From contig JAENZJ010000013.1 in NCBI GenBank assembly GCA_016841325.1, forward strand, positions 1 through 64,000: DNA of 64,000 bases, in the 5' to 3' direction. Of the stretch, positions 100-12,654 are shown piece by piece (the first letter of the stretch is position 1; each line of letters begins with the position of its first letter). Under the pieces are notes generated by a model that was given only the letters and a program-made list of their open reading frames with translations, was not told the origin of the DNA and searched no databases. The position numbers and the translations under genes were made by a program. The stretch comes from Thermincola carboxydiphila (GTDB lineage Bacteria > Bacillota > Thermincolia > Thermincolales > UBA2595).

Positions 100-202
100 G
101 CGATACAGAATCAGGCCAGGTCCTTTATGTTTCTTCTGACTAAACCTGATTCCGAAGGTAACTATGATTTTACTGATTCTATTAAGAATCAAGCCGGGAT
201 GC

Positions 203-264: not shown

Positions 265-282
265 TTGGCATCAATCTTGCAT
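265..282 (+). promoter_or_regulatory. sigma-54 (RpoN) promoter of the mttC operon
   Basis: TTGGCATCAATCTTGCAT carries the GG (267-268) and GC (279-280) elements exactly 10 nt apart, matching the -24/-12 consensus TGGCAY-N5-TTGCW. Transcription would start near 291, leaving a leader of about 160 nt before mttC. Two sigma-54-dependent activators encoded downstream make this assignment coherent. Confidence 0.8.
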
Positions 283-395
283 TATATAGTTTTAGTACTA
301 AATCGTATCACTCGGAATACATCCGGCTTACATAATTTTTGCTTAGCATCATTTTAGATAGTTTGTCTTCAGTGTTATCCGCTGGGAGGTGACAA

Positions 396-458
396 ATGAG
401 AAAATAGTTGCCGGGCCGAGCTCACAAAAATATTTCGGAGGTGAATTTACTTAAATGA
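396..458 (+). CDS. leader ORF with in-frame amber codon, overlapping the mttC start
   Basis: A strong ribosome-binding site (GGGAGGTGA, 384-392) precedes ATG 396. The frame reads M-R-K, then TAG (405-407), then stays open for 16 further codons (L-P-G-R-A-H-K to N-L-L-K) and ends at TGA 456-458. That stop overlaps the mttC ATG at 455 as ATGA. If UAG is read as stop the product is a tripeptide; if read as pyrrolysine it is a 20-residue peptide whose termination would deliver ribosomes to mttC. The mttC Shine-Dalgarno (437-441) sits 13 nt from its ATG, rather far, which would suit coupling. An alternative is that this is a relic duplication of the mttC start, since both share GGAGGTGA and ATGAG. 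Confidence 0.4.
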
Positions 459-1096
459 GTAAAGAAGATGTGTTAAAAAAAGCTATGAATGCCGTTATTG
501 ACGGTGACCCTGATGCCGCCTTGGCAGCAGCTAACCAGGCCATCGCTGAGGGAATCAACCCTGTTGAAGTTATCTCAGAGGGTCTTTCGCTCGGGATGAC
601 CAAGGTCGGGGACCTGTTCAATAATGAAGAAATCTCTCTTCCCTTTGTTATTGTTGCTGCCGATGCCATGACCCAGGCTATCGCAGTCCTGGAACCACAT
701 ATACCTGAAGAACACAAGGGTGAGAAGGTAGGAACGGTTGTCATGGGAACAGTAGAAGGTGATATCCATGATATCGGCAAAGGAATTGTTGCCACAATGT
801 TGAGGGTTTACGGATTTGAGGTCTATGACCTGGGACGTGATGTCCCTGTACAGGCATTTATTGACAAGGCCAAAGAGGTAAATGCTGACATAATTGGCTC
901 ATCAACTCTGATGACCACTACCCTGCCGGGCCAGAAGGCGCTTCAGGAAGCTATCAGCGCTGCCGGTCTGAAGGTTAAAACCATGGTTGGCGGCGCAGCT
1001 ACCAATCAGCAGTGGGCCGATAAGATCGGGGCCACCGCATATGGTGAAAACGCTACCGAAGCTGTGCAGAAAGCCAAGGAACTGGTACAGCAATAA
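455..1096 (+). CDS. mttC: trimethylamine corrinoid protein MttC
   Basis: This is a 213-residue cytoplasmic corrinoid carrier that accepts the methyl group from trimethylamine via MttB and passes it to a downstream methyltransferase. Residues 1-85 form the helical cap domain of methyltransferase corrinoid proteins. Residues 90-213 form the cobalamin-binding domain, with the base-off motif EGDIHDIGKG, whose His105 is the lower cobalt ligand. The length matches the family. It is the first full gene after the sigma-54 promoter and is followed 20 nt later by mttB. The ATG overlaps the stop of the amber-containing leader ORF. It is closely similar to MtbC at 2601, so the split between tri- and dimethylamine roles rests on which methyltransferase is adjacent. 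Confidence 0.92.
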   Translation: MSKEDVLKKAMNAVIDGDPDAALAAANQAIAEGINPVEVISEGLSLGMTKVGDLFNNEEISLPFVIVAADAMTQAIAVLEPHIPEEHKGEKVGTVVMGTVEGDIHDIGKGIVATMLRVYGFEVYDLGRDVPVQAFIDKAKEVNADIIGSSTLMTTTLPGQKALQEAISAAGLKVKTMVGGAATNQQWADKIGATAYGENATEAVQKAKELVQQ

Positions 1097-1116: not shown

Positions 1117-2583
1117 TTGAAAAGAGGATTTCATGCCGGTCTAGATGAACGGCGCGGGTTTAGTCTGAATATGTTCAGCAAAGATGAACTCGAAGAAATT
1201 CATTACGCAACCCTGGAAGTGCTTGAACAGGTAGGTATCCTGGTTTTCTGTGATGAGGCCATGGATATTCTTGACGGGGCGGGCGCTGACTGTGACAGAG
1301 CAGCAAATAAAGTTAGGTTTCCCCAGTGGCTGGTTGAAGATGCCATCCGCTCCTGCCCCAGGAAAATACTTCTGGCAGGCAGGGACCCCAAGAATGATAT
1401 GATCTGTGAGGGCAGGCGTGTTGGCTTTACTAACTTCGGCGCCGGGGTAATGATTGAAGACCCTTATACCGGAGAGTTTAAGGAAACAACCAAGAAAGAT
1501 GTTGGAAATACTGCCCTGGTATGTGATGCCCTGGATACAGTGGACATTTACTCCAGTGCGGTAGTGGGACGGGATATGCCGGAAATAAGTGTTGACCTCC
1601 ATGAGGCAGAGGCATTTCTTTCAAACACCACAAAACACTGCCAGCACATTGACCTTACCGGGGGTTCAGGGGCCAGGGGCTTCCTGGAAATGGGAGCTGC
1701 CATAGTGGGCGGTATGGAAGAACTGCGCCGCAGGCCTGTAATCTCGGCTCTGGTCTGTCCGGTAAGTCCGCTGCAGCTGCATACAAATACCTGTGAGATT
1801 ATTATTGAATTTGCCAAAGCAGGGGTACCGGTAAATATCCTTTCAATGGCCATGTCAGGGGCATCATCACCAATAACCCTGGCTGGAACACTGGTTACCC
1901 ATAATGCCGAGGTGTTGGCCGGAATTGTCCTGGCCCAGGCAACACGCAAGGGCTCTCCCATTATGTACGGCAGTTCCACTACCACCTTTGACCTGACATA
2001 TGTAACTGCACCGGTAGGCGCTCCCGAGCTGGGGATGATAAATGCCGGGGTAGCCGAACTCTCCAATTTCTACCGGCTGCCAAGTTACGTTGCAGGCACC
2101 TAGGGTGACTCCAAGCTTTCAGATGCCCAGGCCGGACATGAAAAGACAATTACGGCTTTACTGCCGGCTCTCGCCGGAGCCAATATGATCTACGGCATGG
2201 GTATGCTTGAGCTTGGAGTGACGTTCAGCTTTGCTCAACTCCTGATTGATGATGAGATTGCCTCCATGGTTAAACGGACAGTGCAGGGCATTGCCGTTAA
2301 CGATGAGACATTGGCTGTTGATATTATCAAGCATGTCGGGGCCGGGAAAGATTTCCTGGGACAACGGCATACCAGAGATTTCATGGCCAAAGAGCAGTCT
2401 AAGCCCAAGATCATCGACAGAAGGATGAGAGGCGCCTGGACCAGCAGGGGAGCCAAGTCCATGGCTGAACGTGCCAATGAAAAGGCAATCGAGATCCTGG
2501 AGAATCACAAGCCCACACCTCTACCTGAAGATGTCCAGAAGAAGTTCAAAGAAATTATAGCTCGCGCTGAAGCAGACCTTTAA
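1117..2583 (+). CDS. mttB: trimethylamine:corrinoid methyltransferase MttB, pyrrolysine-containing
   Basis: The enzyme transfers a methyl group from trimethylamine to the Co(I) corrinoid of MttC. It starts at TTG 1117 after GGAGGTGAGG. The frame meets TAG at 2101-2103 and continues without break to TAA at 2581-2583. This gives 488 residues with pyrrolysine at 329, close to the archaeal enzyme (about 495 residues, Pyl near 334). The sequence around it, LPSYVAGT-Pyl-GDSKLSDAQAG, is the MttB active-site signature, and the post-amber part (NMIYGMGMLELGVTF) is typical of the family. A gene finder will split it into two ORFs (1117-2103 and 2185-2583). It requires tRNA-Pyl and the pyl genes, which lie outside this window. 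Confidence 0.93.
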
Positions 2584-3245: not shown

Positions 3246-3273
3246 TAAAAAAAACCGAAAGGAGGTGTGGAAT

Positions 3274-4674
3274 TTGAAGAAATATCTGACCCGTATGGGT
3301 GATGGAGAGCGCATCGAGATGACCGTGGATGAAATGAAGCGTGATTTGGAGCTCGGGACTCAGGATGCAGCCAACAGGGGCAAGATAGCTCCCCTGACCC
3401 AGGATGAATTGGATTATCTCCTTGACATTTTTACCAACCCCAACAAAATTGTCAGTGTGGAACCCGGGAACGAGGTACCGTTGACCCATGATATCGGTAC
3501 ATTGAGGTTAATGGGAGACCAGGGAAACAGCGGGGTCGGGATACCTCTCAGCAGGGTTCAGGGAATTCAGGTTCATGAACGGGCTTTTGCTGCAGATACA
3601 ATGGAACTGGGGCATATTGACTATAGTTTTAAGCCTGTCAAACCCGTTATTGCCATGGAACAGCAGGAAATGGAAAATGCCCTGTTGAGTACCATTGTCC
3701 CCTTATTCTATGGGGCGATGCCAAACCTTGGCCTGTACTACGCTCCTGACGGGCCGTTTGGCAATCCCTCCGACCTGCTGCCTATGGGAAAGATCCAGGA
3801 AGCCCGCGAGGCCCAGGAAGGCGCTGTGGAACACGCCACCAGGGACATGATTTACATTTGTGAAAAGCTGTATGCTGTTGGCTGTGACGGTATCAATTTT
3901 GACACCACCGGGGCTGCAGGGGATACGGATATGAAAGCAACCCTGCACGCGGTGGAATATCTGAAGGCGAATACTGACCTTGCCATTGAAGTGGGGATGG
4001 CCGGAGAGTTTGTCCTCGGTATGCACGGGGGTCTGGAATATGACGGGGTAAGGCTTGCAGGACTGTATCCCCACCAGCAGGTTAAGCTTGTTGAAAAGGC
4101 CGGAGCCGATATCTTTGGCCCGGTGGTAAATACCAATACCAGCAAATCAATGCCCTGGAACCTGGCACGGGCAGTAACCTTTATTAAGGCCTGTGTCGAG
4201 GCAGCCAATATCCCGATTCATGTCAACATGGGAATGGGAGTCGGTGGATCACCGGTATTTGAAACACCTCCCATTGACAGTGTGACCAGAGCCTCCAAGG
4301 CAATGGTGGAAGTTGCCAAGGTTGACGGCTTGTAGGTAGGCGTTGGAGACCCCCTGGGGATGCCGATAGCTCACGGGATGGCAGCAGGAATGGGTGGAAT
4401 AAGGACCGCCGGAGATCTGGTGGCCCGGATGCAGATGACCCGCAAGATGCGGCTCAAGGATGCTAAAGCCTATGTTGCCGAAAAGCTGAAGGTTTCCCCG
4501 GCTGACCTGTCAAATGAGCATGTAATGAGGGAAGTCCGCGAGGAGCTGGACATCGGAATCATTACATCAGTGCCGGGTTGTGCCAAGGGGATAGAAGCCA
4601 AGGCCAGGATTGCCGAATTGCTTGACATAGAAATAAACAGCGTGAAACGGTTAAAAAACAAAGTTCGATTCTAA
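3274..4674 (+). CDS. mtbB: dimethylamine:corrinoid methyltransferase MtbB, pyrrolysine-containing
   Basis: It transfers a methyl group from dimethylamine to MtbC. The start is TTG 3274, six bases after GGAGGTG; an in-frame GTG at 3265 is part of that ribosome-binding site. TAG at 4333-4335 interrupts the frame at residue 354, and translation continues to TAA 4672-4674 for 466 residues. The archaeal enzyme has about 467 residues with Pyl at 356. The sequence around the amber, VAKVDGL[19 protein letters not shown], and the downstream [16 protein letters not shown] are characteristic. The post-amber part (4360-4674) would be missed or called a separate ORF by standard annotation. MtbB is rarer in bacteria than MttB. 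Confidence 0.92.
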
Positions 4675-5404: not shown

Positions 5405-6490
5405 ATGGCTGATCAAACTCAGGCGAAAATAAAATACAGAGCCGCCACGATTCGATGGGGGTTTATATGGGCTTTATGGACTGCTGTTTTGTGGGGGGCC
5501 TGGTATGTTCCCGGAAGCGCCATATGGTATGAAGTACCATATGTGAACATGGCTTTTGACACCAATGCCGAATTCCTGGTGGCAGCAGCGGTAATTACCG
5601 CGTTTAACGCCGTCTTTGTACTGCTGTTCCTGTTCATCTGGCTGGCAGTACTGGGCAAGATAGGAGATTTTTTCCGCACCCTGAAACAGTTCAGTAACAT
5701 TTCCAAATGGTTTTTTGGAGGCGCAATTTTCGGAGGCCCGATGGCAATCTTTGGTTCCTTTATGGCCATGGGTTATGTAGGGCCGGTATTCGCCGCGGTT
5801 TCCGCCCTGATGTACCCGGTGGTAGGGTCTATAATGGCATATTTCTGGTATAATGAAAAAATCACCAAAAGAGCAGTTCTTGGCATGCTGCTTATCTTAG
5901 CCGGAGGCGTCATTGTATATGGGGTTGGAATTTTTGAGGAGTTAAAGGCCGGTGTAACAGGTCAGGCATGGCTGGGTTATCTCGGAGGGCTGATGGCCGC
6001 AGTCGGATGGGGTGTAGAAGGCGCCATCGCAGGCCGGGCCCTTGATGTCACCGACCCGGATGTGGGGATTACCATCCGTTTCGGTGCTGAAACCTTCTAC
6101 TGGTTAGTTATCATTCTGCCCCTGGCTGCTTTATTCTCCTCTGTGGAAGTGGCCCCAATGGTGGTCCAGACCTTTAATCCGTGGGCATTAATCTTCCTGC
6201 TGCTGGCAGGGATTACATTCGCATACTGTTATGTATCCTGGTATAAGTCATTCCCGCTCATCGGAGTGGGTAGGGGCCAGGCCATCGGAGACCTTTACGG
6301 AATCTTTGCTATCATTTTTGTGGCCATCTTTACACTTGATTTCCCGGAATGGAACTTCATCATTGGCGCTATATTTACCATCGTGGGCGGCTTTGTAATG
6401 TACACTGAAAAAAGTGAGGTCCTTGAAGTTATCAGGTCTATTCCGCAGTCAGGTGAAACTGCCCAATGTGATGTTGATGGAGGGATGTAA
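5405..6490 (+). CDS. multi-spanning permease, candidate methylamine transporter (MttP/EamA-like)
   Basis: This 361-residue protein has about ten hydrophobic segments, spread from residue 16 to about 340. The layout and internal repeat resemble EamA/DMT-type permeases. GAIFGGPMAIFGSFMAMGYVGPVFAAVSALMYPVVGS resembles the end of one EamA repeat in style. Methanogen methylamine operons carry dedicated permeases (MttP, MtbP) of similar size, so uptake of tri- or dimethylamine is the likely role. This is inferred from context and topology, and the substrate is unproven. The start ATG 5405 follows GAGGTGA. It is followed 2 nt later by a small protein gene. Confidence 0.7.
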   Translation: MADQTQAKIKYRAATIRWGFIWALWTAVLWGAWYVPGSAIWYEVPYVNMAFDTNAEFLVAAAVITAFNAVFVLLFLFIWLAVLGKIGDFFRTLKQFSNISKWFFGGAIFGGPMAIFGSFMAMGYVGPVFAAVSALMYPVVGSIMAYFWYNEKITKRAVLGMLLILAGGVIVYGVGIFEELKAGVTGQAWLGYLGGLMAAVGWGVEGAIAGRALDVTDPDVGITIRFGAETFYWLVIILPLAALFSSVEVAPMVVQTFNPWALIFLLLAGITFAYCYVSWYKSFPLIGVGRGQAIGDLYGIFAIIFVAIFTLDFPEWNFIIGAIFTIVGGFVMYTEKSEVLEVIRSIPQSGETAQCDVDGGM

Positions 6491-9107: not shown

Positions 9108-10589
9108 ATGAGCAGGGGGATGAAAACAGGCTGTACGGGCTGGCAGGGGCTGGGAATGCAATCTCTTACTCCCGCAGAGGTTGACAATATTCATGGGGCC
9201 ACCCTGGAGGTGTTGCATTATTCGGGAATAAATGTCTATTGTCAGGAGGCTCTCGAAATACTGGCCGACGGAGGAGCGGACGTAGACTTTGCCACCGGCA
9301 GGGTGTGTATTCCACCCTACCTGGTGGAGGAGACTGTCAGCTCTGCACCGCCAATAGTCATTTTAGCAGGGCGTAATCCCATAAATGATGTTATCATTGG
9401 CGGCCGGAGAGTGCATTTCACCACTTTTGGCGCCGGTTCCCGGGTGGTTGACCATGAAACGGGCCGGATTCATGATGCCACTAAGTCTGACCTCGGTCTG
9501 ACAGCTTTGGTCTGTGATGCCCTTGATAATGTGGATATATTTACCAGTACAATGGTGGCTACAGATATGCCCCATGATATGGCCGGACTCCATGAAGCAG
9601 AAGCTTTCCTGCTTAACACCAGCAAACACTGCCAGCATGATCACCTAAATGATGGGCTGGAGGCCAAGAGCTTTTTTGAAATGGCTGCCGCTATATCAGG
9701 GGGCTGGGATAATTTGAGGAAAAGGCCGATTGTTTCCGCAATGGTCTGCCCCTCAAGCCCGCTGCAGCTTCCCAGGGGAGTGGCAGAGATCATCATTGAG
9801 TCTGCCCGGGCCGAAATACCGGTAAACATTCTTCCTATGGTGATGTCAGGCGCCACCGGTCCGGTTACCCTGGCCGGAAGTCTTGTAGTCAATAATGCAG
9901 AAGTGCTTGGCGGGATTGTTTTACATCAGTTGACCAGGAGAGGCGCTCCGGTAATTTACGGCAGTTCATCGACCATTTTTGACATGAAATATATGACTGC
10001 CCCTGTCGGCGCCCCCGAACTGGGGATGTTAAGTGCGGGGGCTGCGGAGATGGCGCGGTTTTACCTGCTGCCCAGTTATGTCGGTGGGACATAGGGTGAT
10101 TCCAAGCTTACCGATATTCAGCTTGGTCATGAGAAGACCCTGACAACAATGATACCCGCTCTTGCGGGAGCCAATGTGATATTTGGCATGGGTATGATTG
10201 AACTGGGAGTAACCTTCAGTTTTACTCAATTAATTATAGATGACATGATTATAAACAGAACCAAGAACTTAATACAGTCTGATTTCGGAATGGATCAGAT
10301 CTCTGACCTGGGTTGGGTGACGGGTCTGGCGCGAAAAGGCTTTCCGTCAGACGTCTGGTCGCCCCAAAGGGTCCGGAACCGGAAGACTCCCGAAGAATTA
10401 ACAGGTTCTTTTCCTGAGACCAAAAACATCGAAGGTGAAGCCAGGCAAAAGGTCCAGAGTATTATAAACAACCATAAACCCGAACCGCTGCCCCCCACAG
10501 TTGTGAAAAGAATCAGAGAGATAATTTTGGAGGCTGAGGAAGGGAGGGAGCTTCCAATTGCTAAAAGTAAAAGACATCATGCTATATAA
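9108..10589 (+). CDS. mttB: second MttB-family methyltransferase, pyrrolysine-containing
   Basis: This 493-residue enzyme is a paralogue of the first MttB. ATG 9108 follows GGAGTGGGGTG; an in-frame ATG at 9090 overlaps that ribosome-binding site and is less likely. TAG at 10092-10094 falls at residue 329, the same position as in the first MttB, within LPSYVGGT-Pyl-GDSKLTDIQLG. The frame then stays open to TAA 10587-10589. No corrinoid gene is adjacent, so it would have to use MttC/MtbC or a distant partner. The divergent C-terminal third suggests a different quaternary or tertiary amine (inference). Its last 32 nt overlap the start of a sigma-54 activator gene, coupling enzyme and regulator. 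Confidence 0.9.
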
Positions 10590-12654
10590 TCCCCCTTTTT
10601 TATATGTTAACAATAAGGTCAGTCATGCCAGGGTTATTTTTACCCACAGCAAATTAAAAAGTATTCCTATTCTTAATAGGAATGGCTCTTATGCAGGTGT
10701 GCTGGAAAACAGGGTCATTCGCCAGGAGCACCTGCCTGTGGAATCTAAAGTTGAAAAATATATGGATGTATCTATTAAGCCATTATTCCAGGATGAATCT
10801 CTTTCAGTGCTGGGTAAGCTGCGGACTGAGGAAATGGATTTTATCCAGCCGGTAGTTTCCAGAGACGGCGTCCTGGTTGGCCTTATTCCGGAACCTCAGT
10901 TCATTGCGGATATCCTTGGAGACATAACCAGGTACTCAGAATCTGTCTTTGCTATAGACAACAAGGACCTGGCAACTTATGGGATTATTTTGATCAATGA
11001 TGACGGGGAAATTGTATGTTTTAACAGAAATGCTGAAAAAGTGCTTGGTTTACAGGGTAAAAGCATCTATGGCATCCACATAAATAAAGTTCTCCATGAC
11101 TCAAAACTGTGTGAGGTAGTGAAAAAAGGACAGACTCATATTAAGGCAAAAATGCAGGCTAATCAGGCAGTTCTGTGTACTAACCGGTTCCCCCTGTTTA
11201 AAGGGGGCGAAATAGCCGGAGCAATGGGAATATTTGAAGACTTTTCAGAAATTGAGCGCCTGAATGAGAACCTGAAAAATCTGCGCAATCTCAATCTGGA
11301 GATGGTAGGTGTCCTGGAATCAATTAATGACGGGATATTGCTTCTTGACAATAATGGCATTGTTATCAGGACAAACTCCGCCTTTGAAGCCATCTCTGAC
11401 CTTTCGGCAAACGAAATCCTGGGAGTGAATTATGATTATCTTATAGATAAGGGATGCTTGCCGTCAACTGTTTTCTGGCAGGTAATGGAGAAGAAGAAGA
11501 CTTTCCACATTATTGAAAATATTAAGGGACGTGAGTTCCTGATAATTGCCCAGCCGATTTTTGACGCTGATGGAAAACTGATGAGAGTGGTAGTGATTCT
11601 TAAGGATATCTACCACCTGAATGAGCTTATTTTGAATATCCAGACGACTCAGGAACTGGCCACACGTTACTGTAATGATTTAAATTCCAGCCAGTCGCCG
11701 GAACAGAAGGAGGACATGGTGGCCAGCAGTATGGCCATGAGGCGGGTTGTATCACTGGCAAATAAAGTTGCCAAAGTTGATTCCAATGTACTGATAACCG
11801 GAGAGACAGGGGTTGGGAAAGAGGTTGTGGCCAGGTCAATACATCGCTGCAGCCGCCGCATGGACGGACCATTCATTAAGCTTAACTGTGGGGCTATTCC
11901 CGAGAACCTTTTGGAATCGGAATTGTTTGGGTATGAGGCCGGAGCCTTTACCGGGGCCAAGAGGGAAGGGAAATCCGGTTTAATTGAATTATCCGACGGA
12001 GGCACCCTCTTTCTTGATGAAGTAGCCGATTTACCAATCAATCTGCAGGTCAAGTTGTTAAGGGTTTTACAGGAAAGAGAGGTAATGAGGGTAGGGGGTA
12101 CCAAAACCAAAAAAGTTGATTTCCGGCTGACCGCTGCAACCAACAAAGACCTGGAACAGTTAGTCAAACAAAACCAATTCCGTGAAGACCTCTTCTACCG
12201 GCTTAATGTTGTCCCGGTAAATATCCCGCCTCTAAGAGAAAGAAAAGAAGATATAATTCCCCTGATCATAACTTTCCTCAACAGGTTTAACAAGAAATAT
12301 GGTTTGGTTAAAAAGATCTCACCTGAAGTGATCCAGAGTCTTTTAAAATATGACTGGCCCGGCAATATCAGGGAACTGGAAAATACCATTGAAAGACTTG
12401 TGGTAACAAGTGACAGCAACCTGATTATGCCTGAGGACATGAAAGGAAATACCCGTATTGACGTGGTGCCCTTGGATCAGGATCAACCCAAAGCCCTTGT
12501 CGATGTTCTGGAAGAAACAGAGAAGCGGCTGATTATTCAGGCTTTTCAGCACTGCCGGACTACCCGCGAGATGGCCGAGGCGCTTGGTATCAGTCAATCC
12601 GCAGTTGTGAAGAAAATGAAAAAACATGGCATTAAAGGTGTCTCCACCGGATAG
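10558..12654 (+). CDS. sigma-54-dependent activator (CBS-CBS-PAS-PAS-AAA-Fis)
   Basis: The 698-residue enhancer-binding protein begins at TTG 10558, nine bases after GGGAGGGAG. Residues 1-130 look like a CBS pair, and residues 140-245 and 255-365 like PAS domains. The AAA+ domain has Walker A GETGVGKE near 415, the sigma-54 contact loop GAFTGA at 462-467 and Walker [10 protein letters not shown]. The C-terminal Fis-type helix-turn-helix is [20 protein letters not shown]. The gene overlaps the second mttB by 32 nt, and its likely target is the sigma-54 promoter at 265. The PAS domains may sense the substrate or redox state (inference). It ends in TAG. Confidence 0.92.
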   Translation: MLKVKDIMLYNPPFLYVNNKVSHARVIFTHSKLKSIPILNRNGSYAGVLENRVIRQEHLPVESKVEKYMDVSIKPLFQDESLSVLGKLRTEEMDFIQPVVSRDGVLVGLIPEPQFIADILGDITRYSESVFAIDNKDLATYGIILINDDGEIVCFNRNAEKVLGLQGKSIYGIHINKVLHDSKLCEVVKKGQTHIKAKMQANQAVLCTNRFPLFKGGEIAGAMGIFEDFSEIERLNENLKNLRNLNLEMVGVLESINDGILLLDNNGIVIRTNSAFEAISDLSANEILGVNYDYLIDKGCLPSTVFWQVMEKKKTFHIIENIKGREFLIIAQPIFDADGKLMRVVVILKDIYHLNELILNIQTTQELATRYCNDLNSSQSPEQKEDMVASSMAMRRVVSLANKVAKVDSNVLITGETGVGKEVVARSIHRCSRRMDGPFIKLNCGAIPENLLESELFGYEAGAFTGAKREGKSGLIELSDGGTLFLDEVADLPINLQVKLLRVLQEREVMRVGGTKTKKVDFRLTAATNKDLEQLVKQNQFREDLFYRLNVVPVNIPPLRERKEDIIPLIITFLNRFNKKYGLVKKISPEVIQSLLKYDWPGNIRELENTIERLVVTSDSNLIMPEDMKGNTRIDVVPLDQDQPKALVDVLEETEKRLIIQAFQHCRTTREMAEALGISQSAVVKKMKKHGIKGVSTG

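Follow-up and report, generated by a model that had tools for sequence, protein, structure and literature searches.

A candidate STAB-SD-like ribosome-binding element, with a three-codon minigene, ahead of mttC in Thermincola carboxydiphila

Leader peptides of the trp and erm type are encoded by leader ORFs that contain a cognate codon and precede genes with a need for the corresponding amino acid. In Bacillus, strong Shine-Dalgarno sequences (SDs) in 5' leaders stabilise mRNAs through ribosome occupancy, whether or not a start codon follows (PMC3997798); the type case of such a STAB-SD is cry3A of Bacillus thuringiensis (PMC4113751). Minigenes with strong ribosome-binding sites (RBSs) have a comparable action, or work through coupling, in two further systems (PMC8708949). 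One is a mini-ORF of six codons in the 5' leader of EHEC LEE4, in which binding rather than the peptide matters (Lodato et al. 2012, as described in PMC8708949); the other is minigene mg2 of axe-txe, which lies just upstream of a gene and stimulates the translation of that gene.

This work concerns the leader of the mttC operon in a 64,000-nucleotide stretch of Thermincola carboxydiphila DNA (referred to here as the window), with which a 108-kb contig begins. As in amino-acid-sensing leaders of the trp and erm type, a cognate codon stands in a leader ORF ahead of genes requiring it; here, however, ORF and codon are not conserved in relatives, and alternative RNA structures are not part of the case. 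The resemblance to STAB-SDs and to the polypurine 5' stabilisers of Bacillus (PMC4113751, PMC3997798) lies in a strong leader SD far from the true start, with no product needed; the difference is that, in one genome, a start codon and an early stop follow the SD. With the LEE4 mini-ORF, the locus shares a short, strong-RBS ORF in the 5' leader, whereas the LEE4 element (PMC8708949) counteracts RNase E in E. coli and belongs to a different organism and operon. Like mg2, the minigene has few codons and precedes a gene, but mg2 has two codons, a UAA stop, and a position very close to its gene (PMC8708949).

Layout of the mttC leader and operon

The features of the leader and operon are as follows, with coordinates in the window.

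385..392, + strand: upstream SD GGAGGTGA, an 8-nt match to AAGGAGGTGA; candidate STAB-SD or minigene RBS
396..407, + strand: minigene ATG AGA AAA TAG (M-R-K-UAG), with the TAG at 405-407
408..458, + strand: open frame past the amber codon, with 16 sense codons and a terminal TGA that overlaps the mttC start
437..444, + strand: mttC SD GGAGGTGA, inside the leader frame and 10 nt from the ATG
446..463, + strand: weak 7-bp hairpin (-3.7 kcal/mol), whose loop takes in part of the mttC ATG
455..1096, + strand: mttC, corrinoid protein (B12-binding and B12-binding_2)
1117..2583, + strand: mttB, trimethylamine methyltransferase (PF06253), with 1 in-frame TAG and PYLIS_3 at 2101-2200
3265..4674, + strand: mtbB, dimethylamine methyltransferase (PF09505), with 1 in-frame TAG and PYLIS_2 at 4333-4432

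The upstream SD is separated by 3 nt from ATG 396-398 and ends 62 nt before mttC. Past the amber codon the frame reads TTG CCG GGC CGA GCT CAC AAA AAT ATT TCG GAG GTG AAT TTA CTT AAA, after which TGA 456-458 overlaps the mttC ATG (455-457) as ATGA. An earlier note on this DNA had described an SD, an ATG at 396, a TAG as codon 4, 16 further codons, and the ATGA overlap, a layout that proved exact on re-reading of the sequence. Within 128 kb (both strands of the window), the leader at 396 is the sole start that combines an SD match of at least 7 nt with termination within 6 codons, which makes it unlikely that the upstream RBS is noise. An open stretch of 16 codons after the amber, in one of three frames, says little.

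The genome carries PylSn and a tRNA-Pyl-like gene with a CUA anticodon, and UAG can therefore be read as pyrrolysine (Pyl) in this host. Amber-containing methyltransferases of the genome comprise two mttB, mtbB, and mtmB; as had been claimed, the operon's large enzymes need pyrrolysine, mttB and mtbB each having one in-frame TAG. In the first 20 kb, Rfam models matched (E ≤ 1) nothing but PYLIS elements, which lie at the amber codons of mttB and mtbB, with none at 405. Elsewhere in the genome, contig C11 contains two near-identical mtmC-mtmB copies (locus L171, 5211-7295 and 10733-12817), with an in-frame TAG in each mtmB and a separate -24/-12 element per copy.

Recurrence of the leader SD in relatives and across the gene class

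The same-genus relative G001, the nearest pyl+ relative with an orthologous operon, whose MttC is 93% identical and which also has PylSn and the tRNA, is the sole relative with a leader that can be aligned end to end. Its leader, AGGAGGTGACACTTGGAACATAGTTGCTAA, retains the string ATAGTTGC and the upstream SD, the latter at an unchanged distance from mttC and likewise remote from that gene's own RBS. A 1-nt deletion leaves a TTG start and puts the amber into another frame; codon 6 of the TTG frame is a TAA stop. A G-rich, SD-like box lies ∼60 nt upstream of the mttC orthologues of G003 and G008, without a start and without an amber, and G002 has neither such a box nor a start or amber ahead of mttC. 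A second mttC in G003 is preceded by a perfect AAGGAGGTGA ending at -56, also without a start codon. In the T. carboxydiphila genome itself, the mtmC operons and the second mttB have no such leader. The frame, amber codon, and overlap, on which the earlier note had built its proposal of a pyrrolysine-sensing leader, are not conserved in G001, G003, G008, or G002, the outcome that the note itself had named as refuting the proposal.

Two further candidates were rejected. The leader is not a conserved coding sequence, given the 1-nt indels and the in-frame TAA in G001. Nor is it a conserved RNA structure: single-sequence folds vary between homologues, and the hairpin at the mttC start is identical in G001 and absent from G003 and G008, being present in the two Thermincola leaders only. 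As for the gene's own SD, GGAGGT is invariant across six aligned leaders. The mttC RBS does lie inside the leader ORF and, as the earlier note had it, far from its ATG (13 nt if counted from GGAGG, 10 nt from the full 8-nt SD). The long spacing is nevertheless common to G001, G003, and G008; because it is shared by relatives without the leader ORF, it is unconnected to the leader and not a sign of it.

The SD recurs more widely. For orphan SDs of at least 8 nt, we scanned positions -30 to -120 (90 nt) ahead of genes with room for such an element, with other genes of the same loci, taken from simple ORF calling, as controls; this class search covered MAG contigs of 10 genomes, with other phyla represented through the loci of one scan. 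An orphan SD was found ahead of 8/104 methyltransferase or corrinoid genes and 1/153 other genes (Fisher p = 0.004), and the lone control match (G003:C15) is itself a Pyl operon. Several members of the class have an SD of 8 to 10 nt with no start codon, e.g., L047 mtbB, L277, and L281; in L047 mtbB, as in the second mttC of G003, the SD measures 9 to 10 nt. The SD is the part that is conserved or recurrent, also where no start codon follows, which suggests that it is the functionally relevant one.

With somewhat better than even confidence, we regard the feature as a STAB-SD-like ribosome-binding element of the 5' leader, accompanied here by a three-codon minigene. The strong SD at 385-392 would recruit 30S or 70S ribosomes ∼60 nt ahead of mttC, and a leader-bound ribosome may protect the transcript from 5'-3' decay, as at a STAB-SD, or keep ribosomes on the stretch where mttC translation begins. 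That a start codon and an early stop come after the SD in this genome (M-R-K-UAG) would be coincidence; the identity of the UAG is probably incidental, and mttC would start from its own SD. Since the recurring element is the SD, and since leader SDs of Bacillus stabilise mRNAs, we infer the same action here. Should the proposed role of the SD hold, the methylamine operons of Bacillota would offer a clear, recurrent case of distant leader RBSs, testable with one mutation.

Under a variant of this reading, the minigene is translated, and termination and re-initiation tune mttC whatever the stop, as with axe-txe mg2, instead of the SD acting alone. G001 also has an SD, a start, and an early stop at equal distance, with TTG and TAA in place of ATG and TAG, but no start codon follows the box in G003 and G008, and we consider this variant improbable.

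Amber minigenes and the case for pyrrolysine sensing

Layouts like that of mttC occur on two unrelated Pyl operons. On the reverse strand of G003:C15 (L238), a sigma-54 promoter (TGGCACGGATTTTGCA) and a strong SD precede ATG AAT TAT TAG, with the ATG at locus position 5974. The post-amber frame has 13 codons, and 20 nt separate its terminal TAA from a sodium:solute symporter gene, which is followed by an amber-containing mttB; PylSn is nearby. On a Dehalococcoidia contig (L047, 5323-5400), an SD and ATG CTT TAG stand at the mtbB-mtbC junction, and the post-amber frame ends 8 nt inside the corrinoid gene. With that of the window, there are three readthrough frames on Pyl operons, and each terminates in the interval from -20 to +8 relative to the start of the next gene.

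Minigenes were further sought in 25 genomes, most of them with amber methyltransferases, using a pattern in which GGAGGTG is followed, after 2 to 8 nt, by an ATG-initiated frame whose third or fourth codon is a stop. The matches comprised 19 with an in-frame TAG (frames sorted by hand) and 71 with TAA or TGA. After automatic sorting, 6/19 TAG sites and 17/60 sorted TAA/TGA sites lay ahead of a gene; by inspection, 5 TAG and 10 TAA/TGA sites were convincing leader minigenes. The five TAG leaders are those of mttC in the window, the symporter-mttB operon, and CstA-like, NhaC-like, and Hsp20-like genes (the last three named from their N-termini by eye). Compared with a TAG share of ∼25% among stops, 5/15 is no excess (P = 0.31), and amber is not preferred over TAA and TGA among minigenes. 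A loose, genome-wide GGAGG-ATG-TAG search was uninformative, with 141 matches against 159 in the reversed control. In these genomes, the minigene is a general leader feature, and the identity of its stop is usually arbitrary. Strong-SD TAA minigenes of two or three codons were also observed 60 to 115 nt upstream of transporter genes in L379, L382, L408, and L431; we know of no description of strong-SD minigenes ahead of transporter genes for these bacteria.

On Pyl operons, the count is different: all three ATG minigenes found there (window, L238, and L047) are amber, compared to 3/13 elsewhere. Expressed as the share lying on Pyl operons, this is 3/6 amber versus 0/10 TAA/TGA minigenes (Fisher p = 0.036; p = 0.095 if the window, the starting point of the search, is excluded). 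Post-amber frames were open for at least 12 codons in 6/6 cases, compared to 5/10 after TAA or TGA. Both comparisons involve small numbers, and the second was made post hoc.

These observations bear on the proposal that the leader senses pyrrolysine. Charged tRNA-Pyl would read the UAG, and ribosomes that reach the ATGA, or come close to the following RBS, would melt the hairpin at the start and initiate again; otherwise, they would stop after MRK. Part of the earlier proposal stood up, namely, a real RBS and a minimal ORF before a Pyl operon in a UAG-decoding host, and a layout that recurs in two other Pyl operons. The uniformly amber ATG minigenes of Pyl operons, the readthrough frames that end so near the next start, the mttC ATG within a weak hairpin, and the presence of PylSn and the tRNA-Pyl-like gene are all consistent with such sensing. 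Against it, frame, amber, and ATG are gone in G001 despite its pylS and tRNA, and the leader is absent from the first mttC of G003, from G008 and G002, and from the genome's own mtmC operons and second mttB. In addition, mttC has a strong SD of its own, and amber is not enriched among minigenes. On balance, we judge a pyrrolysine sensor unlikely. An amber-reading ribosome might open the hairpin and so give a modest, Pyl-dependent boost, but G001, which lacks a readable frame, shares this hairpin. It is likewise doubtful that the UAG minigenes of the window, the G003 symporter-mttB operon, and the Dehalococcoidia mtbB-mtbC junction form a family with fast turnover between species, in which Pyl-dependent readthrough couples the next gene to the Pyl supply.

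Searches of the open literature for pyrrolysine with leader peptides or attenuation found no described Pyl leader, in agreement with the earlier note, which knew of none of this type. To our knowledge, no other leader senses the 22nd amino acid, and the mttC leader would be the first if the amber matters; how bacteria avoid truncated Pyl enzymes would then become directly testable.

Quite unlikely, in our estimate, is a relic or chance origin, i.e., a copied mttC start region or a functionless SD that happens to precede ATG and TAG: AATGAG-AAA does resemble the mttC start AATGAGTAAA after GGAGGTGA, and the ∼140 loose GGAGG-ATG-TAG patterns in the genome do not exceed the reversed control, but the relic duplication raised in the earlier note is disfavoured by G001, whose leader is less like the mttC start though the SD is kept, which argues against a recent copy, while chance is disfavoured by an 8-nt SD that is unique among early-stop starts in the window and by the enrichment of orphan SDs in the gene class.

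Putative promoter, operator, and activator

In addition to the STAB-SD-like element, three features of the window relate to transcription.

174..191, no strand assigned: palindrome TGATTCTATTAAGAATCA, a perfect TGATTC-N6-GAATCA; candidate operator (UAS) for a sigma-54 activator
265..281, + strand: sigma-54-type -24/-12 promoter TTGGCATCAATCTTGCA of the mttC operon, a consensus match only
10558..12654, + strand: sigma-54 activator with PAS and CBS domains and a Fis-type HTH (Sigma54_activat, PAS, HTH_50); candidate operon regulator

The promoter sequence would place the transcription start of the mttC operon near 291, ∼95 nt upstream of the SD. With 1 mismatch allowed, the palindrome is expected by chance 0.2 times per window. 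The mttC genes of G003, G008, and G002 are likewise preceded by both promoter element and palindrome. Further occurrences of the palindrome lie in the genome's own mtmC cluster and in the PylSn region of G003.

A sigma-54 promoter, an operator, and a PAS/HTH activator provide an ordinary account of methylamine control, without translational sensing. Such control may be mainly transcriptional, with the window-encoded activator acting through the palindromic operator on the mttC promoter. Judged from motif occurrence, the palindrome and sigma-54 promoter, which the family's mttC, mtmC, and pyl clusters have in common, likely mark a methylamine regulon, and the pair would give Pyl genes there a concrete regulon at the level of transcription. 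A search of the open literature found nothing that joins pyrrolysine, trimethylamine, and sigma-54.

Two minor observations concern these promoters. In G001 (L042/L296), a stretch of ∼230 nt that includes both operator and sigma-54 promoter has been lost ahead of an otherwise intact mttC-mttB-mtbC-mtbB operon. In L238 of G003, at reverse-complement position ∼7818, a sigma-54-type promoter lies directly 5' of the tRNA-Pyl-like gene and PylSn, an arrangement that suggests sigma-54 control of genetic-code expansion itself.
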